A stretch of 64,000 nucleotides of DNA from Lepraria neglecta (taxonomy: Eukaryota > Ascomycota > Lecanoromycetes > Lecanorales > Stereocaulaceae). Below, piece by piece: positions 40,883 to 64,000 of the stretch. Both the position numbers and the translations under genes were made by a program. The notes below the pieces were generated by a model that ran no database searches, was not told the origin of the DNA, and saw only the letters and a list, made by a program, of their open reading frames with translations. The stretch spans positions 2,170,001-2,234,000 of the forward strand of contig CM065650.1 in NCBI GenBank assembly GCA_033220425.1. Reading direction: 5' to 3'. Position 1 is the stretch's first letter. Each line of letters opens with the position of its first letter.

Positions 40883-43066
40883 ATGACTAGCTTCCAACAG
40901 CCTCAAACCATCAGGTCAACCTCTCCAGATGTCATAGAATACCTGTGCCAAGACCCTCTTGGAGACTTTCAAGTGAACCAAGGTAGCGTCTTCTTCGATT
41001 CTGTAGACAATGACCAGGCCTACTTCAGCAACTGGTATGTGGGGACCAAACACCTGATTCAAGCTTGAAGACCACGTCAAAACCCTGACCCGTAGCGATA
41101 TGCCCAGGTCATTCTATGATGAATCGTATAGCCACTTTATACCATCAGCCGGGCACTCTCATAATACGGGATCAATCGGCCCTCAGTGGACGTTACTTGG
41201 AGACTACGGACCTTATGCCCATGCCTTGATTCCATGCATGCCAGAACCGGCTGATGCCTCCACACGTTTCCTTACGGGACCTCCACTTCAAGAATTGTCT
41301 ACCTCTGGAGTAATATCGGCGCCTCAACACCAGATGCCGTCCATGGACTATTTCAAGTCGCTGGACAAGAGAGTAATGCTGCCACCAAACGCCGGAGCTG
41401 ATCCTGGACAACAACTGGATCTTTGTAGGGACCTCATCCAAATTGGTAAGGACACGCCCCCGGAATTTGGTCCGCAGCAGTATGTATCCTTAGGAGACGA
41501 GAACGAGGCCTGCAAAGGATTCGAATTACAGACACTAATCAAGGGTAAGCAGTGCGTAAATACGGAGATGGAAATCCAAAGCCAGTCTTACTTCGGCGAG
41601 GATGCTAGTTCACATACCACGGCGAGAATGCCAAGTACAAAAAGATCGCGACGAGCTTTCACTAAACCCAAGCGTCAGAAGGTCAACTCTGTAAGGCAGG
41701 CGTCAGCTTGCATACGCTGCCAGGTGATGCATGAAGAAGTGAGCTTAGACGCCGGTTCTCCTTTCAATTCCGATTAACTTTGATTAACGTGCATAGTGCG
41801 GGCTTGGGGAGATATGTCCTAGATGTTCCTGTGTCGGGGCAGGAGCAAAAACTTGGAGACTACCTTGCTTTAGAGGCCGCCTGAGTGATGTTCAACTCCA
41901 TATAACGAGTCAGTATGCCGGCTAGATCTGGATTTCTCTAAACGTTGTCCACAGACTCCCTGTTCCTTCCCACGGGGATCCCTAAGATTATAAAATTGGC
42001 CTCGGCCCGCACATGCGAGATTGCTCTCTACAGCACTGTCGTCGCCAACTCAGCTCTACCTTCCGCGTCGCTGCCTTGTGTCAAGGTCATTTGCCAACAA
42101 TCCTCCGCACTCATGACAGAACTAGTGATTCCTGCCAACCAGATTACAAGAGCCGCCAAAGGTCTTGACGCCCTTATTAGCTCATATCAGAATACTATCC
42201 AGTTCCACATGTCTGATGGATGGGACGAACTGGTATCACGCACAATTTCCGAAGCCTTTCGCAATGTGAAGATTGTGAGACTGCTGTCAAAAGTACTAGC
42301 CGATTTTCGCTGACGTGTCTAGTATCCTGAAATTCAAGAAGCAACGAACGTTGCAGTACTCAGCCGGATTACCTCAGCAGGTTTCCAAATGAGGAAGTTG
42401 AAAAGTCCTGGCCTTTCTCACGATGATCTTCCAGGGACTCCTGATGAACCACTCGAGTTGCCAGCTTTCTTGGAGGCTCAGGTACAGTCCCTGCTCATCG
42501 AAAAGATGAGTAAATCCAGAAACAAGGTCTTGTCTCTGCTCAAGAAGAAGACCATGAGCCGAAAGCCGGGACACCGATACGCGATATACCTGACTATGTC
42601 TGTCCTGCTATACAACCTTGAATTTGTCTACAATGATCAAGCACTTAAACTGAAGCGCTACTCTACCAGCGTAAGTCGTCCAAGAATTTGGCTTCCATGC
42701 TTAACTAACTTCTAGCAGCCTCAGAAAATCTTCCCATTCAGTTCATTGACCATGATGGACGCTTGGGAACGTTCCGCTGCCAATCTCATCGCCCATTATC
42801 ACGCTACCTTCCAGGGCACTGTGCCATTTTCTCCAAATTGGCTTGAAAGCGTTAAGGAGGGCGCAGGCGTAGACGCCCAGGCTGCGGAATACCTTCAGGG
42901 CATGGAAAGCATGGTTAAATCAAGAGGTACGCCCTACCTGAGGTCAATCCTAAGACCTCGACCTGACAGCGGTTTAGCCGAAGAGCTTCGAATTCGAGCC
43001 AACGGCTCTCTAGGAGACCCACTTGTTTGGTTCTCCCAGCTTTTCCTGCTGCATCCGCAGCTTTGA
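40883..43066 (+). CDS. Zn2Cys6-like putative regulator, paralogue C
   Basis: Seven exons: 40883-41034, 41108-41738, 41797-41908, 41955-42274, 42323-42670, 42719-42926 and 42978-43066 (619 aa). An extra 5' intron distinguishes it from A and B. The cluster is ACIRCQVMHEE-CGLGEICPRC, with a sixth Cys after 13 residues (WRLPCFR), and is preceded by a basic stretch (KRSRRAFTKPKRQK). Again an intron cuts the cluster before the third Cys and the next exon is 112 nt. The C-terminal part keeps AVLSRITSAGFQM, LLYNLEFVYNDQ and GDPLVWFSQLFL but is more diverged than A and B. The intron before the last exon is 51 nt and open in frame, so its retention would add 17 residues. The acceptor of intron 5 could be at 42715 or 42718. 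Likely nuclear; targets unknown. Confidence 0.8.
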
Positions 43067-45313
43067 ATGCTGAATTTCGCGGACTGATACTGTCGTGAGC
43101 GTTGTGCTGAAGGTCACACCCGAGCAGGATGTCGAGTTGGATAAGTGTGGATGATTTTCACAGTAAACATGCTATGATATGAAGCTAGAGGAGACACCTC
43201 TGTGCGGTCATCAAAGTATTTGTTTCGTGGAATGATATTTCTTGGAGGACGCGTTATGTGGAACTTCTCGAATACGGTAGGGATAGAACATAATTGGCGG
43301 CCAGTCTGCGTTCTTGCAACCAATATCGGCGGGAATCTCACTAGAGCAATGAAAGATAGGGTTATTTGTATTAAGCCCCGAGCTCTCATTTCTGTTTGAT
43401 AAGCCCGGGCATCGCAGCTAGTGACGGGGAGCAATCGGTCATTTTACTGCTATTACAGCGTCACTCGCTAAAGTCGGGCACCACCTATGATGCGGTGTTT
43501 GCCAGTATGGATCGATAGCATCTAAAAGGCACTGTAATGTATGCATGACTTACAAAGAAACCATAGTTTGTATTTGCGAAGAGGCATGCTTGTTTGCTTT
43601 CCCCTTGAGCCAGACAAACGAGGCTTTTGATCATCTACAAAGACCCTTCTCACTCAAAATGCTCCAAGTTGTAGATATGTATTGGTCTCTCCAGCACTTG
43701 TTCTGCTTGAAGACCTTTAACTTAGCCATGCTGGTAGCGCGTGAGCTAGCAGAACAAAGGAATGAAACAACAATGCATGGGTAACAAGTCAACCAATTAC
43801 GGATGTGATAAAGTACTGAGTATTCGGGCAAAGACGTCCCATTCGCCGCCGATTGTGACGGGCAATCTATGATTGAGTGTGTCTGTTGAATCTTTCCGTC
43901 TCTTTTCAATCCGTCCTCAGTGTCTACCGTAGGGACGTCACTCAGAACTTGGGTCTCAGAGGTAGAGGTACTGAGAAGCCCATGATCTTTTTACTTCAGG
44001 AGAGATTGCGCCTTAAAATCGCACAAGTTTATACACTTGTCGCGGCAGACCTTTCTTCCTCATCTTTGCCAATATGGACGCAGTGAGATATTTGATTCTT
44101 GTCAGTGTAGATACTATTGTACGATACAAGGCTGACAGATAGGTGATGAGAGTATGAGGTATGTCGCCGCAGGAAACACGTTGAGCGAAGACAGAGATCC
44201 AGTGCTCGCCGTGAAGGAGATAGGACCAAATGTACGGCGGCATGACACGAATGTATATCGAGAATCCTGGCAGTGCTCTATAGTACACCAGCAGGATATT
44301 GCCAATCCAAGATTATTGTTTAGCCTGCTCTTAACCGGCAATTCGCAGCTGACCACTTGCGGGCTTTGCATAGCTTACATTGGATTAAGTCACCAGGGCC
44401 GGACCGCAGAATCAGTATCATTAGCATGTACGTGGTGACGAAATCCCATATCTGCGATATTTAAGAGTTTCTCGGAGCTGTAGGGCACTTAAGGTGTATT
44501 TTTCCAACCCAATTGAGGGTACTGGGCCCGTCATTTCGAACACACTAAGCTTTCAGCAGAAGACTCAATATCAATGACAACTCTCTCGGCGGCGTCAGCT
44601 GCAATTATCGGGGTGCAAAGTCTTGGCAATATCACCCTTCTCGTGAGGCTTCGCATACAGTATTTGCAAGCACTGCTCCTTCTAGGCCCTTCCCCAAGCC
44701 CTTCCCCGCATTATCAAAATGGTGGCAGGGACTTATCCCTGCTTTGCCCGACTTTGATGCCCGCGTCAACACTCAACTCAACCACTTAGATCCTCCATAA
44801 TTGTTCTTAGTCAGGAACATCCTTCACTGTTTACCCTCAGTCTTATTCCTGCCTCCTTTTCTTCCTGATTTGATACGGCTGTTGTTACCCCACGAAGATC
44901 AACTAGCAGCAAAGATCATAATCCTTCCTCGACCTTAAACATACACTTTCAAGACAGCTTACAGGGTCTTTTCTCTCTCCTGCTACGCCTGTCCACACAA
45001 GTAGCTGCTTCGATATCATCAAGTCAGAAACGCCATTGTTTGCTCCTACAACGCGTAAATCTAACCTTCTTCTTTGTGTTTGCCATCTTTGCACGACGTT
45101 GGTGCAGCCTCAACACTTTGCACAAGTGTTCAACATCTTCAGGTATGTGTTGTGATCTTTTATCCCTTTCGCTGTCCTTCCTCCTTCTCCTCATCCTCCA
45201 AGAAGCATCACCTTGCACGTCCCTTAACGTCTGCAGGCAATTCTGGACGGTAATACTAACATACCATTTAGCGCACCAGCCACTTTGCTCATAAGTCATA
45301 CTACTCCATCATA
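43067..45313. other. Long intergenic region; right part duplicated upstream of array copy 2
   Basis: No gene is supported in 43067-44560. From about 44760 to 44870 the DNA resembles 49860-49970 (shared CCGCGTCAACAC and AGTCAGG..YCCTTCACTGTTTACC), so the upstream region of array copy 1 was duplicated with the gene. The last 400 bp before 45314 are C/T-rich, fitting a promoter and a 5' UTR that may hold an intron. Confidence 0.5.
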
Positions 45314-47173
45314 ATGACCAAGCTCCGAAAGTACCCCACGAACCCGGTCTGCGGGGCAGGCAACAAGCCGCGCGAGCTGGGACAGACACGAAACGCTCGG
45401 CGTGGAAAGATCGAGTATCTCAATCCAATGACTGGAGAATGGCAGGCTGCCGTACATCTTCGCGACATTAGGGAGAAGCTCTTGAGAGAAGAAGACCCTA
45501 ACCAGTATACCATCCCGAAAAAGCATGGGGACGAGCACCAAAAGGAGCCAACTAACTACACTTCTTTCCTGCAGAAGGACAAGGAATTCGGCCCAGAGAG
45601 GAACAATCGTTCCCATGTGCTGTTTCAAATCAAGAACGCGAAGCCACCTACGGAAAAGCCAACAGCATACGTCACGGATGACAACCGCATTGTCCTAGAC
45701 GCCTATGATCATGGGCTGAGAGACTTCCCGAATGTTTTGCCAAAGGTCTTGTCCTCAGAACTTGAAGGACATGACATAGAATATTATTACCGACAAAACG
45801 CGGATATCGCAGACTACGATCTGATCGCTCGCATGCCCCACGCCTTTCATCATGGAAACGAGGGACAATATTACCGCGATGAGCCTCCAAGAGGAGGTAC
45901 AATCAACCAACGTGCCCAACGATTCCGTACGAGGGCAGCTTGCACTGCATGGAATAACCGGGCCGGAACTGGTACCAAGAACGCTTTTATCTTGAGCCTG
46001 ATACCCGATGAATACAAAGCAGCCGACGTCAACTCGACACGCGATTTCAGAGATCTCGACGATGGCGAGATAAAGGCAGTCAATACTCAGAATAAAGTGA
46101 AACTTACCAAAGTAGCTCGGAATGCAAAGGATGCTGGCAAAAACAAGAAGGCTACAAAGGGTATTGCCAAAGTCAAAAAGGCTTCAAAGGGTACTTCCAA
46201 AGCCAAGAAGGCTCAGACTGGCGACTTGGTGGATGATGACGATTTTCTTGCTGATATTGAGAGCGATGAAGACGCAGAGCCTCCGTTAAAGCGCGCACCT
46301 TCTCAAAAGAAAACTTCTAACCCGCGTTCGGCAAGAGCAGCCCGAACCTCAAAGTCTGCATCGAATGTTGCCTCAGACGCGGCACTCGTCCTCTACTCCA
46401 ATGACTCTTGTCCCGTTTCTGGCTCATCGTCAGGTCAGATTCAGGACACCAGTGAAGACGAGCAGCCAGCGAGACAAGAAATTTCACTCAAGCATCCTAC
46501 CGCAAACATGAAGCGGAAGCGCGAAGTGGATACTCATCAACAATCACGCCCCTCAAAGCGAGCTAGAGTTGAGCAGCAGCCACAGCCTACTTCAGCGTCA
46601 TGCGAGACATCATCCTCTCACACTACATGGACTAAGAGCAACGCCCAATCTAGACGTCATAAGGGTACAGCAAACACCACTATTGCCCACACGCCTAGCT
46701 CAGCCAATCCTCCTCCCAGTGGCCGCTCCTCATCAGCAGTCAACTTCAATCCGGATACTGACATGCAATTCAAATCAGAGGTCGCTGCCGGCATCGCTCG
46801 AGGTGACTTCCGCTACGTCGCTCCATGTGGCAATCTCACGGATTTCGAAGACAAGTGGAATCTCAATCGAGCTCTCGAGCTTACGCGTGACGACTGCTTC
46901 CACTACACCGGCCAGATGCCACCAACGGTTATCTGGGCCAACCACCAACGCGAGTGTTATGCCTCGCACTATCGTCGTATCCAGGAATTCTTCGAGCGTA
47001 TCTGGGAGGCACCCGAATCTGCCCCGGCCCTTTATTGCCTACCTGAATGGCATGCTGGGTTTGAGAACTGGACGGCGCCTGATCGTCGAGGCAAGGAGCT
47101 TGAGGCCGTGATGGTGGATACGTGGGATGTGAATGCGGATGACGATAGTGGTGAGGAGGACTTGGTGTCTTGA
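45314..47173 (+). CDS. Uncharacterised array family, copy 1 (intronless)
   Basis: Single exon, 619 aa. The N-terminus has NPVCGAGNKPRELGQTR and YLNPMTGEW. It is followed by HLRDIREKLL, TNYTSFLQKD and the central block RIVLDAYDHGLRDFP, SSELEGHDIEYYYRQN, DYDLIARMP and GGTINQRAQRFRTRAACTAW. Residues of about 255-480 are a Lys/Ser-rich, charged linker with candidate nuclear localisation signals (KRKREV, PSKRARV). The C-terminal block (480-600) has AGIARGDFRY, NRALELTRDDC, ECYASHYRRIQEFFERIW and ALYCLPEWHAGFENW, ending in an acidic tail. I know no domain of this kind. Copies 2 and 3 have introns after W (of MTGxW), within QY/SY and within DLI-A; here the same codons join without a gap. Probably nuclear; function unknown. 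Confidence 0.85.
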   Translation: MTKLRKYPTNPVCGAGNKPRELGQTRNARRGKIEYLNPMTGEWQAAVHLRDIREKLLREEDPNQYTIPKKHGDEHQKEPTNYTSFLQKDKEFGPERNNRSHVLFQIKNAKPPTEKPTAYVTDDNRIVLDAYDHGLRDFPNVLPKVLSSELEGHDIEYYYRQNADIADYDLIARMPHAFHHGNEGQYYRDEPPRGGTINQRAQRFRTRAACTAWNNRAGTGTKNAFILSLIPDEYKAADVNSTRDFRDLDDGEIKAVNTQNKVKLTKVARNAKDAGKNKKATKGIAKVKKASKGTSKAKKAQTGDLVDDDDFLADIESDEDAEPPLKRAPSQKKTSNPRSARAARTSKSASNVASDAALVLYSNDSCPVSGSSSGQIQDTSEDEQPARQEISLKHPTANMKRKREVDTHQQSRPSKRARVEQQPQPTSASCETSSSHTTWTKSNAQSRRHKGTANTTIAHTPSSANPPPSGRSSSAVNFNPDTDMQFKSEVAAGIARGDFRYVAPCGNLTDFEDKWNLNRALELTRDDCFHYTGQMPPTVIWANHQRECYASHYRRIQEFFERIWEAPESAPALYCLPEWHAGFENWTAPDRRGKELEAVMVDTWDVNADDDSGEEDLVS

Positions 47174-50100
47174 AGTATTGGTCTTCGAAGCGGAGGTGCG
47201 GCAAAGCATGGGAAGATGATGTCTTGGGGGTGGAATCCGGAGTCGGAGGGCGGAACATGATCATTTCTTGTCGCAGTAAATTCTCTGGTGATACTTCTTG
47301 CATTGCTTCTCTTCATTTTCATAGCTCATGCGCTTGCTAGAAAAGTTTTCTTCACGTGGACCGAGGGCGCAGTGGATTAAAGGGACTCCAGCGACGTCTT
47401 TCCTTTCATCAAATTTTTTTTTTTTTTTTTGGCTTGAGAGTGCATTGGCCTTCTTGACTTCATGATTCCAACTTTCTTTATTGAAGGTATTCCAATTACA
47501 ATGCATGTCTGTCATGCAGCAGGCATGTGCTGCTCACGTGTCTTTTCGAGTGGCGGCTGTACATAGAGTTTCCAATCACCAAAAGCAATCAAAGAAGTCT
47601 GACAGAAAAATCTCGGTATCTCCGCAACACAAGACGCTGATAATAAGCTAAAGAGTGAGCCGTGCAATGGATTGAAGATATAGTTGGGAGGAAATGAGGC
47701 TGAGACTTGCTCAACGCTAAAATCAGAAAGGTGACTAATTCTACGCCCCCTTTCACTAAACCCACACCCTTTGCAGCATATAATGTCAAGATGCTTGAAT
47801 GCTTTACAGACTTCCCTAGATTGTTCATCACGATGGCAATGAAGCCGTAGAAATTCAGTCGTAGTCATTCATAAGGTGCGCAACTAGCGAGGTGGTCTCT
47901 TCACAGCCAGACAAATGGGCCTTTGTGTAAAATGTTTGTTGATTGAGAATGAAGTTTTCCTTCATTTGCCCTCCATACCAGCGTAGACCACTACTAACTC
48001 CATCACTGATAGACAGTTTATTGGCCTGGAGAACCTTCACCCACTTGATGATTTGGGTAATTCCCCACAAGCACGCGACCGTAGTCAATGTTCAATGTAG
48101 CCGTCGTAGAACCCTTATAACATGTGAAGAAAAAAAAGGAAGGAAGCTTCGCCTTGGCAATTGATAGTTCACCTAGTGATATCTCCGCTGTTAATCCTTC
48201 AAAAGGGGCACAATGCCTCATTAAATATTCGTGTTTTCTTCTGCAAATAAAGAAGAAATTTCCTTGTTGATTGAAACTCGAGGGTGCGTTCATTCATATA
48301 TACACTTACATATATACCTATCTTATCGACTTGAATACTCTACAGAATGCTATATGCATATCGAATCTGGGCATTTTATCGAGACAACTCTCTTGGACAC
48401 CTTTCTTCTTGGGACAAATATAAAGGAGATTCAAAAGAAGAATGACTCCTACACAAATAATTGGTGCAGCAATCTGGCGGTCAGCTCTACAAAGAGACTC
48501 TGAGATGTGAACAAAGAGAGCGGAAGGCAGTGGAAGCTTCACCGTGTCAATAACAGATAGAATTAATCCCAGAATGAGAAATCTTGCGGACAATGACTTG
48601 ATTGGTGTAAGAGATAACTTGGCGAGGTATAGCACAGCTGATAGTGGTCTGACTGCCCGGATGCACAACAACTTGCACTCAAGAAAGCAGACGACTTGGT
48701 CTGGGTGGACTCAATGATTGATGATACGATGAAGCGGCGTTGTTGACCTCCAGTGACGTTCGCAGCTATCGGCTCTTTGGGCTTCGGGGATGCGATACTA
48801 CAACAAGTGCAGAACTCAAGCAAAAGTACGACGGCCTGAGATCGAACAACTGTAGGAAAAGAACATCTCGGTGAACACCACTGAAACCCACCATCGGTAT
48901 ACCGCCTCTCGGAGCAGAACGACTGTCACGAGATCTTACGGAACCGAAGCGCATACACCTTCAGTGAAGATAAGGGAGACGACCACCGCGAGGCGCTGGA
49001 AAGATGAAGGTGAGAATTGGTCACAAGAGAGACGAAAAGTACTGAGGCTTCAGGCGTTAGTCAAGGGATATCGGACTGCCGATGCTCATATGATCAAAAG
49101 CCAATCGTCTGCCAATAAAGAGCTGCAAGCGAAGCTGCTGAACACCTGGCTGGAAGAGATATGAGCTCAAATGAGTCGATCATGCATCTCAAATCAGAGC
49201 TCTCGCTATGAGAAAAAGCAAATGAGCACCTGCATACCAAAAAATCAGAGATGATGAAGTTGAACTAGATTGCCCTCGCCGCATAGCAAGAGCAGAAGCT
49301 TGAAAGGCTGAAACCTAGCATCGGAACACTCAAGTACATCGCGTAAGCGGTACGGAAAACCGAGGCTTAGGTCAAGACTCGAGAAGCGTATGAAATGCCA
49401 GACAAAATATTTGAAAAAACAATGAAGTACCCTTCAAGTTATCGAGGACGACGAACAAAAGCTTTTGAAACGCATTCAAGACCTAGACGCAGCAGCACCA
49501 AACGGAAAGGGCGCCACAAGAATGTACACAAGGTCGTCGATGCTGTCCTCCGGACCTTGGTTTGAAAATTTAGGGAGGGCAACAAAAGTTCATTTTATAG
49601 AGACGTCCGTTGCGGATGAGGGAGAAACTTGCTTTGTCTAGAAGGTCCATCTGGCTTCAAATATGCTACTATTGACAGTAAAAGGGCACAAGATGAAATC
49701 GAACATAGAAGGATCGTCTGATGATCGAAGGACGCCACGTCTTGCCCTTTTGAGGAGATTTCAAGATCAAGCCTTGCCTTCCATGCAAGCACAGATACCT
49801 CTATATCGTTGCTCAACTTACAGAGATTGCATTTCAAGGCCCAGTCTTGATTCCTCACGCGTCAATAGCCGCGTCAACACCTATGCCTTCCATCATTCTC
49901 TGATATCTAGCTTAGTCAGGCTGGTCCTTCACTGTTTACCTCCAACCTAAGCCCAGCCTCTTCTCTCCCGGTCTTCGACACATATGTCAACTCTCAATAC
50001 ATCCACTCCAGGCAGTCTGCACATTATCAGCATAGAGTGTCTTTGCTTAAGACATTAGTGGACCTGCAGGACTTGTTTTCTCTAACAGGACGACCTCTAA

Positions 50101-50413
50101 CACAAAGCACAGACCGCTTTCTGGAGTAGTTCTCCTTTGATAGTAAAGCTTCAACACCACTGTTCCTCCTCAAAATCCCTATCCTCCTATCCTCGACATC
50201 TCGTCTATCTTCCGTCGACCTTGCAAGAGCTTGCAACACACTCAAGCTCCTCTACTATATCCCTAACGCGTCAAAGGTACTTTAGCCCCTTCCCCACTCT
50301 TCCTCAAGGTCATCATCTTACATCTTCTTCCAACATACTGATTTCGGGGCGTACAGTATTGCTGACTTCCGATCAACCAAGCAAGCCCTTAACAGCTACA
50401 ACCTACCTGCATC
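47174..50413. other. Spacer between array copies 1 and 2
   Basis: Contains a 17-base T run (47414-47430) and AT-rich DNA. The stretch near 47690-47740 resembles 53305-53350 downstream of copy 2 (GAGRYTGAGACTTGCT, then CRCTAAA), so the 3' flank is duplicated too. A coiled-coil relic lies at 48870-49640. From about 49860 the sequence resembles the upstream region of copy 1. Confidence 0.5.
48870..49640 (+). pseudogene. Possible coiled-coil protein relic
   Basis: The plus strand reads WSQERRKVLRLQALVKGYRT and NKELQAKLLNTWLEE up to a stop at 49162. Heptad-like scraps with many stops follow, for example VIEDDEQKLLKRIQDLDAAA near 49440-49500 and FIETSVADEGETCFV near 49600-49640. No start or domain is recognised. 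It looks like a decayed gene for a coiled-coil protein, but this is weak evidence. Confidence 0.35.
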
Positions 50414-52868
50414 ATGACAAAGCTGCTCATGCACCCAAAAAACCCTGTCTGTGAGACAAATAACAAGCCCAAGGAGTTGGGTGAGACTCGATATCGATCA
50501 AATGGCCGACTCCAGTACAAGAATCCCATGACTGGCAGCTGGGGTAAGTATCAATACAAGCATCAGCGTAAAGGGCAACTTGCTGACAATGTTCCAGATA
50601 ATGCCGTGCGTCTCCATGACATTCGAGCAAAGCTGTTGCAAGAAGCACAGCCTAGCCAATACAGTAAGCTCACATTCTCTCTCCACGATAATGTTGTGGT
50701 CTAACAGTCAAAGCCTTTCCCAAAAAGGACGGCAACAAGGGGGGAAAGCATCCCACCAACTACACGAGTTTCCTCCTCAAGGACAAGGACGTTGGCCCGC
50801 TAAGAGCCAACCGACCTGATGTCTTGTTCAAGATCTTCAAGAACGCTCAACATAGCGCGGAGCCCACTGGCTACCTTATGGACGAAGGTCGTATCGTGCT
50901 CGATGCTTTCGATCACGGCATTCGAGACTTCCCCCATTTACCAAAGCTGCTGTCCTCTGAGCTCGAAGGTCACGACATCGAGTACTATTACCGTCAAAAC
51001 GCGGAGACGACAGACTATGACCTGATCGGTAAGTAAGTTGCTTCATTGCCCTGATCAAAGCTGACTGTTACGTGATAGCTCGGATGCCTAATGGCTATTG
51101 GGGCGGGAAGGGCGGAAGGGAGTGGAAAGAGCCTAGGGGTGGAACCGTCAACCAGCGAGCACAACGATACCGTGGCATGTCGGCCTTAATCTCCTGGAAC
51201 CAGCGAGAAGGCACAAAGAACAAAAACGACTACATATTAAGCCTGATCCCCGCCTGGTGTAAGAACCCTGCAGTTAACTCGACCAAGAATTTCCGCGATC
51301 TGGAGAAAGACGAGAAAAAGGCGACCGAGAAGCAGAATGAGGGCAAGATGTTGTCGCGTGCTCGGAATGCCAAGAAGGATCTCAAGAAGAGTGGCAAGAA
51401 GATTGACAAGAAGGGTTCCAAGACCGAGGAAGAGTCATCGGCTGAGGAAGATTATGATGAAGAGGCCGTCGAGGAGTATTATGATGAGGATTCTGCTGAG
51501 GATGATCATGGTGAGGAGGACAATGATAGATGGGACTTCAATGAGGTGGCAGACGCATACGAAGCGCAAGCTGAAGAAGAGGCCGCTCTTGAGTCTTCGC
51601 ATATTGAGAGCAGCTTCAACGGCTCCCTTCTGTGGCCAGCCGGTCCTCACAGCTCAACGTCAAGCAGCAATGGAGATCTTGGATTTCCATTCACAAGAAA
51701 GACCGTCGCAGGAAAGACTGTCGTAGGGAAGACCGTTCCAGGACACACCTACGCAGGAAAGACCGTTCCAGGACACACCTACCCAGGGAAGACCGTTCCA
51801 GGACACACCTTCGCAGGAAAGACTCTCGCCAAGGCTTCTTTCGGCTTCAACACATATGGAAAGCGTTCCCGAACACATGATGCCGAAGATTCAGCGGATG
51901 ATTCGGATATCCGGCCATCGAAGCGTCCCCATGTTGTTGAGACTTCCGAAGCAGCCAACACTTCTGCCGATTCTGCTCTTCAGCAACGAGCAACTCGTCG
52001 CTCAAAGCCAACCAAACAACGATCCTTCAAGTCATTGGAAGCTCCTCGAGCAACATCAGGCAACACGTTCGATACTTCACTTGCTCCCGCCCTACTTGCA
52101 CCACTACCCATTAGCAACCCAAGCCAAGTAGGAGGTGTTGTTAGCCATACGTATTCGGTCGATACCATCCACCAGCAAGCCGAACCACCCATCATGAACT
52201 CAAAGCGCAAGCGAGACGCACCAGAGGATAGCAATGAGCCTGAGCAGGGGAATCCTTCAAAGCGGACCAAAGCCAACGAGGTCCTCCCACCACCCCAAGC
52301 AGCCTCACGCTCAACACAGTCCGTGCATACCGCAATGGATAGGCGTAATGCTACCATTCGACAACACAAGCGTGCAAAGAATGCCACCACACCTCGATCC
52401 ATAAATTCACCAGCATACAGCATCTTTGGCTACGTCTCCCCAGCAGCAGAGAATCTTAACCCCGAGCTGGACCAAGACTTCCAAGCCGAGGCTCAAGCGG
52501 GCATCGAGCGCGGCGACTATCGTTACATTTCCCCTACCAACAAAGAAGAAGAGGAAGCCATCTCTCAAGCGCTTGAGCTTACCCGCGTCAATTTTCACAA
52601 TCTTAAGGGCTCTATGCCCCCACAGGATCTGAACGATTACAAGGACGAGAGCTACGCTTCTCAATTCCGTCGTCTGCAGCAGCATCATACAAAGAAATGG
52701 ATGGGGGAGTTGCCTGCGCTTCCGCTTTATAGCCTTCCGGCGTGGTATCGTGGGTTTGACAAGTGGAGGACGGCATGCCCACAAGGTCGTTCTCTTAATG
52801 ATCAGGTGCGACAAGCCAAGAAATCGCATGCTACGTTGATGAAGGAGATCGATGCCGAGAAGTCGTAG
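50414..52868 (+). CDS. Uncharacterised array family, copy 2
   Basis: Four exons: 50414-50543, 50598-50663, 50708-51028 and 51079-52868 (768 aa). All three introns are phase 1 with GTAAGT or GTAAGC donors. The N-terminus (NPVCETNNKPKELGETR, NPMTGSW, HDIRAKLLQEA, TNYTSFLLKDKD) and central block (RIVLDAFDHGIRDFP, SSELEGHDIEYYYRQN, DYDLIARMPNG, GGTVNQRAQRYRGMSALISW) are close to copy 1. The linker is longer, with an acidic Asp/Glu/Tyr run (residues of about 290-340) and a 10-residue repeat (KTVPGHTYAG type). The C-terminal block reads AGIERGDYRYISP, QALELTRVNF, ESYASQFRRLQQHH and LYSLPAWYRGFDKW. Basic motifs (PSKRPH, NSKRKRD) suggest nuclear location. Function unknown; no missing key residues can be judged because the family has no known activity. 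Confidence 0.85.
51700..51835 (+). repeat. 30-bp minisatellite in copy 2
   Basis: Repeats of a 30-bp unit (GGAAAGACCGTTCCAGGACA then CACCTACGCA) encode KTVPGHTYAG. Three full units are followed and preceded by 15-bp half units (AGKTV, VGKTV, AGKTL). They keep the frame and are absent from copies 1 and 3. Confidence 0.85.
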
Positions 52869-55800
52869 AGCAAGCTGGAGGCATCACGAGTTGGCGTCAA
52901 GGCATGGCGGGCCTTCGATATGTTGCTCTTTCTCATGCATTCTTCATGCGTCACTATCATGCAACCGCTTTCAGCGGCTCTTTCTTCTTCACAATACCTC
53001 AGGACAATGACGCCGACCCTCCATTTCCCCTCTCCTTCAATCCACGACAAGCATCGAAGGACAATTTCACACTTTGTCATTACCGAAAAATCCCACAGAT
53101 GTCTTATATAGGCACAAATTATAATACTTCATGCATGAGCTTTATTGAGGTCTCCTTGATCAAAGGGCCATTTTGTACATAGCAGCACATAAAACAGACA
53201 ACACAATGTCCACCAAAAGCAATCACCACACTTTCAGATTTATTCAGTATCCTCAAAGCCCTAGTAACGTATCTTGAACAGTCAAATACAAGTTGTGCGG
53301 TGAAGATGTAAGGGATGAGGTTGAGACTTGCTTGGCACTAAATTTTTACTTGGCTGTGCTATTTTTAGAATTTCCACTCTAAGATCAACGACATACCTTG
53401 AATTCTTTGTAGCTGTTGCGTATTGTCCTAGCAGAACATTCAAGTTAGAGAATGAACTGTCCATCGCCAACGGGCTCTCGCAAGCTTTATTACAAGCCAT
53501 GTCCTTGTAGCCTGCTCTCCAAGTCGCTGCTGACTTGTAAAGGCTGCTCTCCAGTCTAAGAACTTCGCAATGTATGTCAAGTGATTTGCATCGGGGTCAA
53601 TCTGAGGAAACTTGTTTATACCTTTATTGCCTCTATTTGCCTATTTCACTAGTAAAGTATACCTTAACAATCACCGGACTGCGGCCAAACCTTCATATGA
53701 ACGCCTTCAAACACTTGCGACCTGTGACAGAAATGTTTAATAAGACTCCGTCTTCACACTCTTCAAGTGATGAATAACACTTCAAGGTTCTTGTCAAAAG
53801 TCTTTCTGCTGCGGGGTCTTCACACCCTGAGAGGCATTACCTCCTACTTATGAAGCAAAGCACTCCTCGTTATAGTTGAAATTGAACATGACACGTTCTT
53901 ATCATTGAGGATGGGCTGTGCGTAGTTGTATCCATATTATATATATTATACTTCCTTGGCTTGGGATTGTGATGGCACTTCGATGCATTCAAGCATGTGC
54001 ATTCAGTCCACCGCATCCATTGAAGACATCACTAGCCGGTCGGCCTCCCCTTCTGTTTCCGCAGTAAGTTTCAATCCTTCAGGACATAGCTAGGTCCAGC
54101 GCCTCCTCCTTAAGCATCGCCGGTGGACTAACAGAGATAGTAAGGGTAATTTCGTGAAATAATGAGAAGTTTCTGATAACTTCAAGCTAGGACAGCTACC
54201 TCCAACATGAATTCGCAGACCGACCTCAACGTGCATATGGTTTGTGCCCAACGAAATCACACGACTTCGCAATCAGGAGCTCCAGAAAAGCGCAATAAGC
54301 ACTCAGGGCGGGCTTGAAAGTGATGTGGTGGAAGATGAATATGGAAGGAACATGTTGAGAACCACGTTTCACTGGAAGAGAAGCAAGTGGGAGAAGGCCA
54401 GGGTGTTACAGTTGTTCCACCGGGCCCAGCAACTAACCATACTCCCTGAGCTCTTCAAGACTTGGGCGGACAAGTTCGACGAACCATGCCTGAAGGTATG
54501 AAATGATTGAGTGGGCAGCAGATGCTAGCCAGTGATCAAGTACGGGATTCCACGAGAGGAAGTTCAAGATCGGTGCGACAGAAGATCCAAGACGCTTGGT
54601 GAATGGCTCCATTAAATCTACCTCATTTGGACTGTTTACCAGTATACAGAGGCAGACTATGGGCTCAACCGTCCACAGCTGCAGTATCGGCATAGCAGCG
54701 ACGGGGGATATACGCTGGACGAAACTTTGGTTGGACTTGGCGGAAGACTATCTCATTTCAGATCCTTGCCATTGAGTCAAGGAATAGAGCTCTAGCAAAC
54801 GGAGCTAGTCTAGGAAGAAAACATTCACGGCATGCAGGTGGAAGTCCTGGGAGAAGCTAAGGCTTCCCTGTTGGCTGACTTGGACATACTGATCAGAGAT
54901 CGGGTCATTGTGCTAGATGCTGTCCAGCGATGAATCGACGAGCGGGAAAAGAAGACTCGTACTGGGTGACCTCCACTGATCGATCTACTCACTTCTCGTA
55001 TGGCAAAGTAAGCGCTCAAATCAAGCTCCGACAGAGCGAAAAGGAAACACTTGACAAAATGGGCAACGCAACAGAGTGGAGGACAGATCTTTCCTTGAAG
55101 CTTGATTCAATTTACAAGCAGTTCCTTCAAAGCCTTATTGGAGTCTCAGCCCCCACGCTCCAGGTACCTCAGCTATCGGACTTGAGTACAATCGCCGACC
55201 TCATTGCAAGCACTTTATAGTTCGATCACACCTCCGTTATTCTGTGTCCAAGAAAGGCACCAAACTTAGGCCCAGCTCGAGAGAATCTACTACCTAGCCT
55301 ATCAGTCTCGACCCTACCGATTCGAGCTCCGGATCGCTCTTGGAACGGACCGCCTTTTCCTTGCCCATCGAAAGGTGTCTCAGACTACGTAGGCCTCACG
55401 TTGCAATCCCTAAATAAGAGCCGTACGTCACTCCAAAAATTGGAATCACTGAACACGTCCTTCGAGAGTCAGTGTGGCATCCAGTCAGCCATGACGTCCT
55501 GTTCCCCCTGACTCACTGAAGGAGAATTCGAGCATGGATTGAGGTTAAGGACACTGTGTTTCTCGCACTACTCCCACTGGTCCAAGACACCTACCTCCAG
55601 GCGCCTCTTCGAACACCTGCAAGATTTTGACTTCGATATTGTCAGGAGCACAGGCTGCCGCAAGGAATCGGAAGACGAAGAGTGTTGTGACAAAACAGGC
55701 ACTCTTCTGGAACATGCGGACGGAATGGAGAACATCAGCTTAAGCTTCCGAGGTGTCTCACCGCTACAGCAGGAACTGTACATTCTGCTCACTTCCCGTC

Positions 55801-56914
55801 AATGGCTATACTGAAGAGCTTACGACTAGATACCCAGCACCAGGATCTGATGCCCTCGAAAAAAACATGTGGCGATAACCGTTGATTCCAAGGAAGGGTT
55901 GGCACTTGAAACATCTCGGCTTCCTAGGGAAACAACACACAATCATCGAGCTAGCACACACTGTTGAGTGACAATTTCCATAGCGATGCAGCCTGATGTC
56001 ATCTGCAAACCTGGCCTGGACCCCCACCACGTTAAGACAATCAAGGACGATAGCTACTGTCAACCTCGCCGATTCCCCATGTGTGGAGGAGCAAGGGAGA
56101 GCCGCATCAAAGTCAATCTCGCGCTAAAGCTCTCGGCAACGACAAGGCTGCCGGATGTGTCAATGTAAGGTACTAAAACGGCATGGCTTGGCAATATCAG
56201 ACCTTCGTGGGCCCCATTAGCTGACCGCAATACCCCATCTGTCAGATGATAGAAGGCTGCCCCACCATTCTAGAGCCTTGCCCCGCCTTCAACCGATAGT
56301 CTCCAAGGTTGTCATTGGTCGATACGGTTATCAACACGCAGCCTTGCCGTTTTGGATGACATTCACGCTTCATCATGCTTGCATTTCGACACTTTTGCCT
56401 TCGTCACCTCCCAGCCTCCCGCCTCCTCTTCTTTGCATTTAAGGTCCTTCAATTTCCTCGCAAACGCTACTTTCTTCATTAGATTCTATTCTCCACAGCA
56501 GAGCTTGTCTACTCTTCAAGTTTCCACTACACAACACGCACTTCTTCCTACACAGCACAGAACAGAAAACGATCTGACGTTCAGACCTACACAGGCATTT
56601 GTGCACAGAGTCTAGAAGATAGTGACAGACACCTTTGCTTGACGTACTTCTTTCCACAATACTCCCTCCGCGTCAAGCGTGGAACATCATCAAGTCACTC
56701 AAAGTACAGGAAGGAGCTTTGATTGTAAGGTGCTGTAACTTGTGCCGTAAGTGTCGCATCTCCAAATCTCCGAGACCCTTTTCCTATGCATGTGTTGTCG
56801 TCCATACTCAGGCAGATGAGTGTCGAGATCCTGCAGCAGCATTCTTCATCATATCAACTGACTTTTATGAAACAGAGTACCCGTTAAACACTTTACTCGT
56901 GTCAAGAACTCGAA
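52869..56914. other. Spacer between array copies 2 and 3
   Basis: No intact gene. The left part repeats the 3' flank of copy 1 (near 53305-53350). A possible relic spans 54240-55220, and 55539-55814 has an open 91-codon frame without a domain. The last 250 bp resemble 59465-59700 upstream of copy 4 (CAATCACTCAAAGTACGG or a close form, then GAGCTTTGA, then TGCTGTAAC), so they are a duplicated promoter and 5' UTR. Confidence 0.5.
54240..55220 (+). pseudogene. Possible coiled-coil protein relic
   Basis: Scraps in shifting frames read HWKRSKWEKARVLQLFHRAQ and ELFKTWADKFDEP (to 54501), then VEVLGEAKASLLADLDILIR (about 54840-54930), then EKETLDKMGNATEWRTDLSL and SIYKQFLQSLIGVSAPTLQV (to 55220). 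Several stops separate them. The first part may be related to the relic near 48960 (both have a Trp-rich start and K-x-R/K-VL-x-L), but I cannot confirm this. Confidence 0.35.
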
Positions 56915-59138
56915 ATGGCCATCTACCTCAAGAACCCTCCCCTAATCGACAACGAGTATCCGGAGACAGGCGAGACGAGGGTTCAAAATGGAGTTTTGGA
57001 ATGCACGTACCAAGGTGCATGGTGTAAGTATCAACACAGGATCCTGCTTTGACTAAGCCACTTACAATGCCATAGTCCCAGCTGTACGGCAGCATACTAT
57101 TAGGGCACAGCTTCTCTATGCTGCCGATATGTACGGGTCGTATAGTAAGTCAGCTCACATTTGTTTGGAAAGGACCGTCTCTGACCACCACAGTGCGTGC
57201 GCGACCTGAGGATGACAATGATAAAAATCGCACAGCATACTTGCATAGAGATCAGAACTATGGAGAGGAATGGGCACATCTGCCACCTATTATTTACGAG
57301 CTATATCCTCCCGCAAACCGACGCGCCGTAAAGCCCAGCAACGTGTTAAGGGATGCAAGTAATCGCATCATGCTTGATCCTTATGATCATCCCATCAGGG
57401 ACTTCCCTGGCGAATTACCGATTGTACTCTCTGATACACTTCACGGTGTATGGGTCGAGTACTATCTCCGCTCCAACCGAGAGATCAAAGTTTACGATCT
57501 AATTGGTACGTGGCAATGGCTCCAACTAGTGTAAATGCTGACATGCTTTTGACAGCTCGGATGGGCTTCGTTGCAAGGGACAATAAGCCTGTCAGGACTG
57601 CAAGATTGACCGAGCGGGCTACGAAATTCCGTAAGGCCGCTGCTTGCTCAACCTGGAACGATAAGACTGGCAGTGCGGAGATCAGGCAAGCCATTGTGAA
57701 CTTGTTGCCCCCTGGTGCTACAAACACTCGCCCCCTCGGCGGATACCTTTCAAAATCGCAGCTGGACATGCTGTATAATGTGAACAGGGGCACCGCTGGG
57801 AACAGGGCGCGCAAGACAGCCCGTGAGGCCAGAGCAGCCCAAGCCACAGCTGCCAACTTAGTTGGCCAATCCAGCCAGACACCAGCCGCGAGGCCTCGCA
57901 AAACAAAGACTGTATCCTCCAATAGTAGACGCACTGTCAATACCACTGTTTCCATCGGCCAACGTGACAACTCTCAAGGCCAGTCAGGATCTGTGCCTCG
58001 CGGAGAAAACAAGCGATTTCGAGACCATACAACACTTGATTTAGCAGTCCAAAACACCTCTCCACCCCTTGCAAAGCGTCCTAGGCCTGAAGAGTCGCTC
58101 GGTGGTGCTGCAGAGACAGATCACCTGCGCACCGAACCGCAAGCACCAAAACGCGGCGCCGACGAAGCATTCTTCGAAGACACGGATGCAGGCTTCGACA
58201 TCCAAGAAAAAAAGCGTCAAAAGATTCGTCCAACAATGGGGACCGTTGTTGGCTCCTTGGCCTCAACTCAGCGCAACAGTCGTCAAGCCATAGATCCCGC
58301 TGCTATGTTAAGTACTGGTCACAACAAGCGTACGAGGACGAATACGAGGATACCGGCACCTCTCGCACCTACACACGCCAACGATGATACCAACAACCCC
58401 TTTAATTCACTAGAGAGCGTTTTATCCCCCCAATCATTCGGGTATGACCCATGTAAGCGCCAATCTGATGGTAACAACAGCCTCTCGCAATCTTACTTCA
58501 AGCCGTCCCACACTCAAACATGCCAAGTTCCATCTCAAACGAACAAGCAAACCTCTGTTGGCAGAGCAGCATTCCAGCAGCATTTCTCCAGCACCTCTAC
58601 CTCCGAAACCCCACAGATAGACGATCTCATAAATCATGCTCAAGAAATTGGAAGTGCCCCCGACCACCATATGACAAACAACACAACTCAAGATACGAGA
58701 GGCCCCTCTACAGCGAAAACAGTCCCTATTATTGATCCTGGCAAAGACGATGCCTTCCAAGCAGAATGCATGGCTGGGATTACACGTCACGACTACCGTT
58801 ACTTTCACCCAAATCTCGACAATGAATCCCCAGACGAGACAATATCCTTGCGCTCAGCTCTTGACCTTACGCGGATAGACCTCATGTTAAAGACCGGGCA
58901 AGACTTTCCAGCTGAGCTGGCCGACAAATATCAAGATGAGAGCTATGCAACCCAGCATTGGCGTCTACAAAAGCATTTCGAGGCCATATGGCACGGTCCA
59001 GGATCTGCTCCCATGCTCTATCGTCTGGAGAAGGATTTCTTCGGGTGGAACACTTGGCCGGCTGTTATTGATCAGCTAGGCCAATGGCTGTATGATACCG
59101 CCCATGAGAAAGGTTGGATGGGAGATGAGGATTTGTGA
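56915..59138 (+). CDS. Uncharacterised array family, copy 3
   Basis: Four exons: 56915-57023, 57076-57144, 57194-57505 and 57556-59138 (690 aa). The three introns are phase 1 and fall at the same codons as in copy 2. The N-terminus is diverged (MAIYLKNPPLIDNEYPETGE, then YQGAW). The central block reads ELYPPANRRAVKP, NRIMLDPYDHPIRDFP, LHGVWVEYYLRSNREIKVYD and LIARMG. It is followed by ERATKFRKAAACSTWNDKTG and NLLPPGATNTRPLGG, a segment also kept in the decayed copies. The linker is Ser/Thr/Gln-rich with basic patches (LAKRPRPEE, KKRQKIR). The C-terminal block has AGITRHDYRYFHP, SALDLTRIDLMLKTGQDFP, DESYATQHWRLQKHFEAIW and MLYRLEKDFFGWNTW. Belongs to a subgroup with copies 4-6. Function unknown. 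Confidence 0.85.
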
Positions 59139-59713
59139 TCAATGGATAAAGCTGCGAGCTCCAGCGATCAGTGGATAGTGGTTGCTAGAACATTCTCAGC
59201 GTGCATGCAACAAAACTTTCTCATTTGGCATTGCCTTCTCGTGCTAGGACTCAACTGGCGTAGATGTCTTTCTAGATTCCAACAGCGTAATAAATACATT
59301 ACTCAAACATCCTGAACTTGAATACATCCATAAAAGGGACATGTTGATATATGGGGGGTACACCCTAACAAGCTCTCGCAACTTAAATTCGCCGCAATTT
59401 TGCAATTGGTGAGGTCTCGCAATACCAGCCTTATTCAAATTTGTTCTTCCAAGTTAGACTTTAAAAACCCGCTTCAATCACTCAAAGTACGGAAAGTCTA
59501 TAAAGAGCTTTGACTTTAAGTTGCTGTAACGCCTGCTGTAAGTCTTCCATTCCTTCAAGTTCCTCTATTACCTTCTCCACGAAGGTGTGGAGCTTGTTGC
59601 CCAGAGTGAGCGACGCCGAAGTCCAGAAACACTCATTTCCAGTATATCAACTGATCTCTATTTAAAGGAATTATCTCCATCACAACACTTGATAACCGTG
59701 TTGAATCTTCAAG

Positions 59714-60750
59714 ATGTCTGTATATTACGCCAACGCAAAGCTTCAAAAGGACAAGAGGCCTGAAAGGGGCTAGACGATGATAATCGACGGCACCTTAGAA
59801 TGTTTTGATCGAAAAATACACTCATGGAGTAAGTACTTGACCTTGACCACTGTATTGGACAATATTCTGATAATATCCAAGAAAAGGGCGTGCAACTGAC
59901 AGATATCAGAGTGAGACTTATCTCGCAGGCCGCTCAGCGGGGTTCCTATAGTACATCAACACCTGCTGCTTGAGAAGAGACGTCTCTAACGAACATAGGC
60001 CACGCGAGGACACGGGGAAAGAAGGATACAGACGTGACTGCGTTTCTTCCAGCAGATACTCACCCCAGCTACGAATGACACAACCATCCACATGTATGGG
60101 TTCAATTGTATCCTGGAGCGACTCGATACTCGAAGAGGCCAAAGGGAGCACTCATAGATGGTGACCGGGTTATGCTCGATCCCTACAATCATCCAATCCG
60201 GGATTTACCGAGCTTCCAGCGACCATCTGCTATTCTGAGAAGGGACTCTTTATGAATATCACCTGCGTCGTAACCGCGAAATTAAGCCATACGGCCTGAT
60301 TGGTATGTCACCTCCGTCCAGAGATGCTCATATCATTGACAAGACATCGTAGCTTGTATAGGCCTCAATGCTGAAATTGTTCTCTGTTTATCATGGAGAA
60401 AGAAGGTCGGCAGTAAGGAGATAATGAAAGCTCTTTCGGATATCTTGCCCGCTGGAGCAACCACCTCCTACTCTTCTGGGCGGGGTATCACCAAGGCGGA
60501 GAGTGAGACTCTTCGTGCGGGTAATAAGGGAATGTTTCCCATCCGTTGACGGAAGGCTGTTCGTGAAGCCGAAGCAGAAGCCAGTCAAGCTGCGTACCCT
60601 GCCGCCACAACGGTTGCACCAATCCAAACAGGCAAGAAGCGACCTGTGTCGGCGACAAATTTTGATCTGGAAGCCAACTCCCGGGACACACATGCTTCAA
60701 AAGCTCCCTGAACGCAAAATTGCTGTGAGGATGAAGAGTCAGCCTTTCTA
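59714..60750 (+). pseudogene. Array family, decayed copy 4
   Basis: Begins like copy 3 at 59714 (MSVYYANAKLQKDKRPERG), then has a TAG at 59771-59773 where copy 3 has Glu of GET. The exon 1 donor (GTAAGT) is still present near 59829. Parts in order: VQLTDIRVRLISQAAQRGSY (about 59890-59950), TAFLPADTHPSY, GDRVMLDPYNHPIRDLP (about 60160-60210), a stop before YHLRRNREIKPYGLIG, then KEIMKALSDILPAGATTSYS and ITKAESETLRAGNKGMFP (about 60410-60540). Frameshifts and stops are spread through it and there is no C-terminal block. Clearly a pseudogene. Confidence 0.8.
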
Positions 60751-60804
60751 GCTGTCCCATGATAGGAAGCGCGGCTTTGATTGTGATATTGTTGATTTCT
60801 CGAG

Positions 60805-61830
60805 ATGGCGGCACATCTTACGAACCCTCCTTTGATCAAGAATGGAAATGAGAGTGAGCCTGCGATGGGCGAGACTCAGATGATTTGTGGACAACTATAC
60901 TGATATTACTGCAATTAATGGCGTAAGTACTAACCTATCCTTCTGCTTCGACCACCATACTGGCGATCCCAAGAACCCGCTGTGCGTCACAACACAAGCC
61001 GCATTCGACAAACAGATTTGCTAGGATCATATCGTGAGTGAGCTCTTGTCAATGTGCCAATGAAGACATCTGACTATTACAGGGCACGCGAGGAAGCACG
61101 AGGGCACTATAAACTTTACCGCTTTTCTCTATAAAGATAGGAATCTTGGCTCAGCGTGGGCTGATCGTTCCCAAGTTGTCTTCGAGCTATACCCGCCAGA
61201 TATCCCACGCAATGTCAAGCTAGCTGGGGTGCTGATGCGTGGGAGTTGTATCATGCTTTACCCCCATGGTTGTCCCATTCGAAATTTTCCCGGCGAGCTT
61301 CCGGTTGTCCTTTGTGCGAACATTGAGCCCATTATGGTGGGATATTAACTGCGCCAAAATGAGGAAATCAAGGCTTACGATTTAATGGGTACGTAATCTT
61401 AGCTAAATATTGTCTATTTAGCTGATAGGTCTTAATACCTCGAATGCCATTCGTCAAACACAAAGGGAGTATCAAGCCTATTAGGATAGGTACCTTACTC
61501 TGACCAAGCGAGCAATCAAGTATCGCCGCAAGGTCGGGTGCATCACCTGGCATGACAAGGAAGCCAGCAAGGAGGTTAAAGACCACATGCTAAGCCTTCT
61601 ACCGCCCGGTGCAAGGGACACGCGGTCTCTCGGCGGGACCTCAGCAAAACTCAGCAGGCAGAGTTAAAAGCCGTCAACGAAGGTACCAAGCCAGAACGAC
61701 GAACGACGCACAAAGCCAAGAGAGAGGCGGAGGCGAATGATACGATCGTCGCGTCCACCGACCAAGTCCCCGTCGGTCAGGTGGCAGCTACTCAAGCAGG
61801 CTCATTGCAGCCCTATGTCTACAGCACGAA
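60805..61830 (+). pseudogene. Array family, decayed copy 5
   Basis: Starts MAAHLTNPPLIKNGNESEPA at 60805 and keeps the order of copy 3: PAVRHNTSRIRQTDLLGSY, then NFTAFLYKDRNLGSAWADRS and FELYPPDIPRNVKLAG, CIMLYPHGCPIRNFPGELPV, a TAA in VGY*LRQNEEIKAYDLMG, TKRAIKYRRKVGCITWHDKE and MLSLLPPGARDTRSLGG. The DPYDH core is changed to LYPHG. Stops lie in exon 1 (near 60899) and at 61348-61350, and a frameshift follows near 61640. There is no C-terminal block before the next copy. Confidence 0.8.
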
Positions 61831-62089
61831 TACCAGCGAACTGTAAAAACGAGCCCTATCGGATTGACACCTTTAATTAGAGGGCAACCAATTCAAGTGA
61901 AGACAAGCTCACCTTGTCCCTCCGCTGTCAAATTAGTAGAGGAGAATGAGCTACAAAAATGGACACTTGAAGCCTGAGAAGCCAACACGCAGCAACAAAT
62001 CAGCAAACTCAAGCAAGTACATGAGGATGGAACAGCCCTCAATGAGCTCACCGAGCGGTTTGCAGCGTGGAGTCTCTCAAAACGAGCCA
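61831..62089. other. Scrap of possible coiled-coil coding DNA
   Basis: Plus-strand frame reading VKLVEENELQKWTLEA, a stop, then ANTQQQISKLKQVHEDGTAL and ELTERFAAWSLSKRAM. Heptad-like, with no recognised family. It might relate to the relics at 48870 and 54240. Confidence 0.3.
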
Positions 62090-63851
62090 TGTCGGATTGA
62101 TACCTTGAATTCGAGGGCAACCCAATTCAGACTTGCCACTGGGTATATGTCCTGAGACTGGCTCCGCGGCTATCAACGCCTTTATCAGAAGCCTTCTACC
62201 GCCTGGTTCGACCGACACATGTTCTCTCGGCGGCGACCTCTCAAAGCCTCGACGTGAACAAATGGAAGCCTTGAACAAGGGGACACGTCCAGAATATGCG
62301 CACAAAGAGTTGCTGAGACATATCCTTCCCTTTCCGTGCCTAATTTGCACAAGCGGGGCCAGAGGAATCCATTGCCGGATGAAAGAGACTTAGATAACGT
62401 CGATTCCGCTGCAAAGGGCCAGAAGACCGCCCGGAGCAATGCTGGAGTGAGAAGTTCCAATGGCGCCCATGATTTCGCCTTTGTACTCCAGCAGAGCTCT
62501 CGAAACTCTGTATATAGAACAGCAAAAATGGTTAATAAGAAAATAATAGTCCAAAGTGAACCACCTACATGTTCTATGCCTTGAAGTTTCCCCACGCAGA
62601 CACTCCTTGACTCTTTCCCCCTGTGCAATTCCAAATGCCCCAACCACTTCCATGGCTCGAAGTATCCCAAAACCAGCATCAAAGTTGCAGCACATCAGTC
62701 TACGGAAGCATTCAAATTTTTAAGAGCATCAGTACCTCACCCTTCCCTCTTAGCATCAGCAAAGCATCTCAGAGTCCGCAAAGTCGAGAAGAGACAACAG
62801 AGCAAGCAATAAAACCACAATGACACCAGCTAAGCCAATCACCGCACGCCCTACATCTATATCTCCGCAACTACGACGGAAACTCGACCCAAATGACATA
62901 CCGACACCCACTAAGTCCACCGCCGGATGCCCTACATCTCAATCTCCGAAGTCAACGCCGGAACTCGATGCAGATGATATAACGACATCAGATGACTCGA
63001 GTCCCGAACGCCCTACATCTCAATCCCCGCAGTTAACACTGGAGGTCGACGCAGATGGCATATCGACATCAGATGACTGGACCACCGAGACCGAGCACCC
63101 TACATCTCCGGCCTCGCTGTCAAAGCCGAGACTGACACAAAGACTCCATCAACACAAAGCTCGAAGAGTGTTAAGCGGTCGCTATCGCCAATCTACAACC
63201 ATGCAGAAGCGAGCCGATGGCAGAGCTGCGCGCAAGCGCAAACCTAACAAGAGAACAATTCAGAGTACTGCCAGATCTGTTCCACTACCATACCAGCCCC
63301 ACGAAGCGGGCCGATGGAGGGTGTCGTTTACAACTTCCGAGACCGGAAACCTGGTGGAGGCGTTTCTGGCTACCACACTGTCACTCACGACCTCCTCCAC
63401 GAAAGAAGCCGGTACCCCCCTCGCGCGGTGCCTGTCATCCGAACACTTGCACAGCCACCCTCGTCAGCGTTCGACCCCAATAGCAGAGATTTCATCGCCG
63501 CGACCCTCACAACCTTGAAGAAAGGCGACCTTCCGATACCACATTCCCGGCCTTCCTGGCGCGGACCCGGGAGCTGTTGGAAGGATCCAGAGAGCGCTCA
63601 TGCTCACGTACATGGATTTGGTACTAAAGACTGGCGAGGACTATCCGTGGGACTTGGTGAATGCGTATCAAGGAGAGAGCTATACATCTCAATACCATCG
63701 ATTGCAAGAGAGATTTGAGGTGTTGTAGAAGGGTGACGGAGATGCGGCAGACCTTTATTTTTTGAAAAGGTGGATGGAGGGGTGGAGTTGGGTTGCCGAT
63801 GATGAGAGAGGGAGGGAGCTTGAGAGATTGGTGGAGGAGAGTGAGTGGTGA
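62090..63851 (+). pseudogene. Array family, decayed copy 6 (N-terminus missing)
   Basis: Begins inside the family at RATQFRLATG, then after a frame change TGSAAINAFIRSLLPPGSTD and CSLGGDLSKPRREQMEALNK. A linker follows, with a 233-codon open frame (62820-63518) holding three imperfect repeats around RPTSQSP and DADDITTSDD. The C-terminal block is split by frame changes: AFDPNSRDFIAATLTTLKKG, RALMLTYMDLVLKTGEDYPW, GESYTSQYHRLQERFEVL, a TAG at 63726-63728, then LYFLKRWMEGWSWV and a final stop at 63849-63851. It lacks the central YDH block. Confidence 0.75.
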
Positions 63852-64000
63852 GGAAGTGGTGTTTGTAGGTTGTGGTTGCGCTCTCTTGGTTGTTAGTGCT
63901 TAAATTGTGCTTCTGAAATTTTTCTTGTGGTAAAGAGCCTACTCTAATTCAGGTCTCTTTTCCTTTGTGAGGGTTCGAAACGCAAGTTTTCCTCTCATTT

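Follow-up and report, generated by a model that had tools for sequence, protein, structure and literature searches.

An old, decaying tandem array of a protein family without assignable domain in Lepraria neglecta, with one copy that lacks its neighbours' introns

In the genome of Lepraria neglecta, a segment of contig C5 carries related reading frames in a row, some open and some broken. Which protein family do they represent, how did the copies arise and decay, and why does one of them lack introns that its neighbours keep? The window, which is the whole stretch of DNA analysed, comprises 64,000 nucleotides (C5:2170001-2234000); the genome searched for relatives comprises 42.0 Mb on 11 contigs. 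Its genes and short GT-AG introns are of a fungal kind. A sequence-only reading of the window had proposed six same-strand copies, three intact and three decaying, of an undescribed family. It had further proposed that whole segments were duplicated and that the family evolves under arms-race or recognition pressure.

Six plus-strand copies (c1 to c6) were found between positions 45314 and 63854 by tblastn with pieces of c1-c3 and by a profile made from c1, c2, c3, and a relative at 254 kb on C6.

45314 to 47173, plus strand: copy c1, open frame, intronless, 619 residues from its Met
50414 to 52868, plus strand: copy c2, four exons, 768 residues, splice sites by eye
56915 to 59138, plus strand: copy c3, four exons, 690 residues, splice sites by eye
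about 59714 to 60564, plus strand: copy c4, decayed; N-terminal part, with the ATG and the donor of intron 1 (59829) still identifiable
about 60805 to 61658, plus strand: copy c5, decayed; N-terminal part interrupted by stops, its intron sites still identifiable by eye
about 62081 to 63854, plus strand: copy c6, decayed, with a middle piece, a linker with 81-nt repeats, and the C block

The open frames are complete in c1-c3 (in c2 and c3 only after removal of three introns each), and stops and frame shifts occur in all of c4-c6, so the proposed division into three intact and three decaying copies is borne out. With c1 as the query, tblastn recovered c2 at E 3e-69 and c3 at E 8e-19; pieces of c3 recovered c4, c5, and c6 at E 1e-13, 2e-28, and 3e-17, respectively. 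Profile E-values were far lower for c1-c3, which had themselves gone into that profile. In the adjoining 18 kb outside the window (L018 and L019), tblastn found no copy and the profile gave chance-level pieces only (best E 0.08). Most aligned pieces of different copies are 57-69% identical in DNA, hence the array duplications are old; the exception is a 56-bp piece shared by the tail of c5 and c6 (86%). The array is a real, old, and decaying tandem set of a family without assignable domain.

The open copies have a common layout, in which a short N-terminal segment is followed by an N block (about 200 residues), a variable linker, and a C block (about 110 residues). In the alignment of the copies, the conserved blocks are as the sequence-only reading described them. 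The N block ends in basic and aromatic residues (R-x-x-[RK]-[FY]-R), after which the array copies have W-[NT]-x-[RK]. Where the first degenerate DNA pattern spelled I-I, the copies have G-I, G-L, or P-I. An NPxTGxW stretch may resemble viral two-cysteine adaptor motifs. No cysteine stands among the invariant columns of the family alignment.

No Pfam-A match was obtained for six window pieces (E<=1), four full proteins (E<=5), or five pieces from L021 and L023 (E<=5), under HMMER filters that drop most matches above about 0.1 and could thus miss very weak ones. NCBIfam, PHROGs, and PDB sequences gave no credible match to the family either. The only matches, in NCBIfam (E 0.037) and in PDB (E 0.033, 0.45, and 3.3), were rejected as chance level. 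Within these four collections, the blocks have no assignable domain. The word "undescribed" holds only for the libraries and literature searched: no library match was credible, and the literature searches did not show this family, which is not proof that it is unpublished. No relative turned up in viral and prokaryotic contigs; since these contigs by description hold little or no fungal DNA, this says little about distribution. AlphaFold models, made from a shallow alignment of window pieces, were poor for both the N block (mean pLDDT 38.8) and the C block (mean pLDDT 55.5). The C-block model has a more reliable part (blocks of pLDDT 62-85), which contains two helices (residues 42-63 and 80-94). 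A Foldseek search with the C-block model only gave no match at E <= 0.001, which is weak evidence because the model is poor.

The linker is variable and of disorder-type composition, and it carries a two-part basic motif resembling a nuclear localisation signal, which was located in c1 as follows.

46511 to 46567, plus strand: NLS-like motif of c1, residues 400-418, two-part basic pattern

Written as K[RH]xR[DE]-x(6,32)-KRx[RK], the motif is present in six of the eight linkers (c1, c2, c3, L020, L023A, and L023B) and absent from those of L023C and c6. It appeared in 1, 0, 1, 0, 30, and 0 of 5000 shuffles of the six linkers, in the order given, and in none of 65 background frames (at least 150 residues; most probably not genes). 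The pattern was drawn up after c1-c3 and L020 had been seen, and two of the four further linkers have it; because these remaining linkers had also been seen earlier, the test was not blind. The proposal of NLS-like motifs in the variable linker thus stands, with the motif partly shared. Short repeats were also observed in the linkers of c1 (46125-46213, 30 nt), c2 (51697-51823, 15/30 nt), and c6 (62842-63078, 81 nt), and they are a likely source of linker length change.

The family is likely nuclear in location, judging from the protein sequences; the proteins would be intracellular and most likely nuclear. As an alternative, the copies could encode effectors secreted by a fungus associated with plants or animals. 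Effector genes commonly expand in tandem and decay, and both features are present here. However, c1, c2, c3, and L020 have no hydrophobic leader or span by simple hydropathy (highest 10-residue average within the first 40 residues, <= 0.65), and the proteins have 619-768 residues and nuclear-type basic motifs. Secretion is therefore a very improbable explanation.

Protein searches located relatives elsewhere in the genome, and the following numbers are lower bounds among the matches listed. At least one relative (L020, at C6:253.9-256.6 kb) is open and intronless; its frame of 895 codons was read as 749 residues from a chosen Met. A second, more diverged array (L023, at C6:216.7-224.3 kb) holds pieces of about three copies, some of them weak (E 0.002-0.02). 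Relic pieces on C1:2566-2569 kb comprise a C block and then an N block downstream, an order that suggests two copies, and further relic fragments lie at C7:2340.7 kb and C6:4206 kb. Matches on C2 (E 0.008, five stops, no profile match in L050), on C4 (E 0.42), and at C1:3108 kb (E 0.36) were not counted as members. Two side observations concern these loci. A 147-bp stretch adjoining second-array copy B (L023:4297-4443 on C6) is 92.5% alike to L050:8475-8617 on C2 and is possibly a small mobile repeat. Beside the C7 relic, L022:6628-9281 holds a NACHT/ankyrin-like reading frame, named by appearance only.

In the tree, c1 pairs with c2 (84/93), c3 groups with c4 and c5 (84/80), and the relics L021 and L022 group together (99/98). 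Only one of its six inner branches reaches the support mark of the tool, and the columns are filled to 20% in c4, 36% in c5, and 40% in L022. The alignment of exon pieces retains one three-residue slip. DNA likeness is common to the relics L021, L022, and L049. The six copies, the second array, the dispersed relics, and the lack of a Pfam match agree with the birth-and-death pattern proposed for the locus. As a case of such evolution, the array looks ordinary in its copy gain and decay; spare copies would be free to diverge or decay.

The introns of c2 and c3 were predicted by eye.

50544-50597, 50664-50707, and 51029-51078, plus strand: introns of c2 (54, 44, and 50 nt), all phase 1
57024-57075, 57145-57193, and 57506-57555, plus strand: introns of c3 (52, 49, and 50 nt), all phase 1

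Both copies have them in the same three places and in the same phase, namely one directly behind the W of the N-terminal segment, one behind the Y that follows it, and one between DLI and ARM. In the C6 array, copy A carries introns 1 and 2 where c2 and c3 have theirs (by eye), and the decayed copy B shows a gap into which intron 3 would fit. All three introns are missing from c1 and from the C6:254-kb gene, whose frames run through every site, and the relics L021, L022, and L049 have no intron at site 3. The introns shared by c2 and c3, the presence of introns 1 and 2 in the C6 array, and the absence of all three from c1 are new here. In the simplest history, the introns would be ancestral; c1 and the C6:254-kb gene would have lost them, and the relic group would have lost at least the one at site 3. 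For c1, loss is the more economical account because c1 groups with c2 and because introns 1 and 2 also occur in C6 copy A.

The sequence-only reading had held the flanks to be similar between copies on both sides. Local alignments were compared with 200 dinucleotide shuffles, for 10 upstream pairs of c1-c5 (200 bases only for c5) and six downstream pairs of c1, c2, c3, and c6. Two upstream pairs beat all 200 shuffles: c1/c2 with a score of 29 against a maximum of 18 (z 10.1), and c3/c4 with 39 against 19 (z 16.6).

44761 to 44865, plus strand: upstream element of c1, collinear with 49869-49969
49869 to 49969, plus strand: upstream element of c2, collinear with 44761-44865
56690 to 56868, plus strand: upstream element of c3, alike to 59474-59661
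59474 to 59661, plus strand: upstream element of c4, alike to 56690-56868

The other eight upstream pairs were at chance level (z 0.8 or less). Downstream, c1/c2 alone of the six pairs exceeded its shuffles, narrowly (18 against a maximum of 17, z 4.9). This likeness was not accepted because a control-control pair also beat its shuffles (16 against 15) and reached z 4.5. Promoter similarity is thus retained for c1/c2 and c3/c4 only, and is not found in the other upstream pairs or in the 3' flanks. Likewise, duplication of whole segments is supported for the upstream side of these two pairs only.

The intronless and scattered copies could be what is left of a mobile or retro-copied element, produced by reverse transcription and transposition. 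The lack of all three introns in c1 and L020, the passage of the three relics through site 3, and the DNA likeness of these relics, two of which group firmly, would all suit such an origin. However, the relic likeness is confined to the N block, no polymerase or integrase domain was found in the scanned copies (the relic flanks lying outside the scan), and the C1 relic has only three genome matches, itself included. In addition, c1 and c2 have a common element some 450-550 bases upstream; a simple retrocopy would not carry it, unless transcription had started at that point. We consider an element origin quite unlikely.

The absence of introns from c1 is best explained by cDNA-mediated loss. 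As in a retrogene, introns present in the paralogues c2 and c3 are cleanly lost from c1; conversion in place is favoured over a transposed retrocopy because the upstream region of c1 stays homologous to that of c2. A spliced transcript would have been copied to cDNA, which would then have overwritten the gene and removed the three introns at once. Under the reverse-transcriptase model, neighbouring introns are expected to disappear cleanly (PMC3652778). The same paper describes the support for this model as mixed and the model as disputed, and adds that end-joining repair can also delete introns cleanly (PMC3652778). Lying beside its intron-bearing sisters, c1 is a clean natural case of complete intron loss that could serve to test the reverse-transcriptase model in a fungus.

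Whether the copies diversify under pressure was judged from codon positions and from dN and dS. Over the 203 codons of the c1/c2 N block, positions 1, 2, and 3 differ in 26%, 27%, and 64%, with 58% identical residues, dN 0.34, and a saturated dS that was not computable. The corresponding differences in the C block are 42%, 36%, and 61%. In the linker (33% identity), they are 54%, 42%, and 64%, with dN 0.72 and dS 3.2. In the 24 comparisons made (four regions by six pairs), dN was below dS in all 10 that were computable, at a dS that is very high or saturated throughout and at which old or weak positive selection could go unnoticed. Purifying selection is clearest in the c1/c2 N block, the other pairs being too diverged. 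The proposed arms-race or recognition pressure found no support, since the N-block differences between c1 and c2 fall mainly at third codon positions.

Other genes of the window were also noted. On the minus strand, 3671-5404 encodes seven TPR stretches and includes a 126-bp tandem array (3792-4627, 92% match); a C2H2-like match ahead of the TPRs is weak and below Pfam's cut-off. On the plus strand, 7557-8996 encodes a DUF7580 protein (E 3.1e-21). A second same-strand tandem set consists of three related zinc-cluster-like genes at 23847-26400, 29576-32040, and 41058-43100. The label was given by eye (ACI-x-C, then an intron), and Pfam matched none of the scanned exons. Genes 2 and 3 have stops within their matches, which may be introns or decay; more matches to this set lie at C5:2028858, C5:2052189, and, weakly, C7:2816354.

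The copies could still be recognition or conflict genes that diversify because they serve to tell self from non-self or take part in some other arms race. Copy turnover, fast linkers with short repeats, and the presence of the TPR-repeat and DUF7580 genes in the same window would fit. In Neurospora, lineage-specific genes cluster with HET genes, according to one study (PMC10684091), and this too would agree. However, the scanned copies have no Pfam domain, hence no HET or NACHT; the c1/c2 N block is constrained, with dN below dS wherever computable; and the TPR and DUF7580 genes lie at least 36 kb from the array. A recognition role is, on balance, unlikely.

RIP is unlikely as the cause of decay. 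The TpA/ApT ratio is 0.76 in c4, 0.81 in c5, and 0.61 in c6, against 0.70 in the window, and (CpA+TpG)/(ApC+GpT) is 1.20 in c4 and 1.25 in c5, against 1.32. The usual RIP cut-offs are 0.89 and 1.03. Copies c4 and c5 lean slightly towards RIP, c6 does not in TpA/ApT, and all fall short of the cut-offs.

We favour a nuclear, possibly nucleic-acid-associated family in tandem birth-and-death evolution, with cDNA-driven intron loss in c1, and give this reading an even chance of being right. Its members might act as nuclear factors touching nucleic acid or chromatin through their basic parts. A bolder version is rather unlikely: an unnamed nuclear nucleic-acid-binding family with undescribed folds and at least two arrays, which would have been stripped of introns via cDNA more than once (in c1 and in the C6:254-kb gene). 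The array thus draws attention to a fungal protein family that has no assignment yet and probably resides in the nucleus.

Among known systems, fungal NLR/HET recognition genes are alike in copy gain and loss; in contrast, no HET, NACHT/NB-ARC, or repeat-sensor domain was found by Pfam in the scanned copies. Fungal zinc-cluster regulators also have nuclear-type basic motifs, and a separate zinc-cluster-like tandem set lies in the same window, but the family has neither a Pfam zinc-cluster match nor any invariant cysteine for a Zn2Cys6 cluster. Lineage-specific fungal birth-and-death families are alike in their tandem copies, in open and decayed members side by side, and in having no assignable domain. 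The present family differs from them in that members also lie on three other contigs and that one open copy has lost introns that its neighbours keep.
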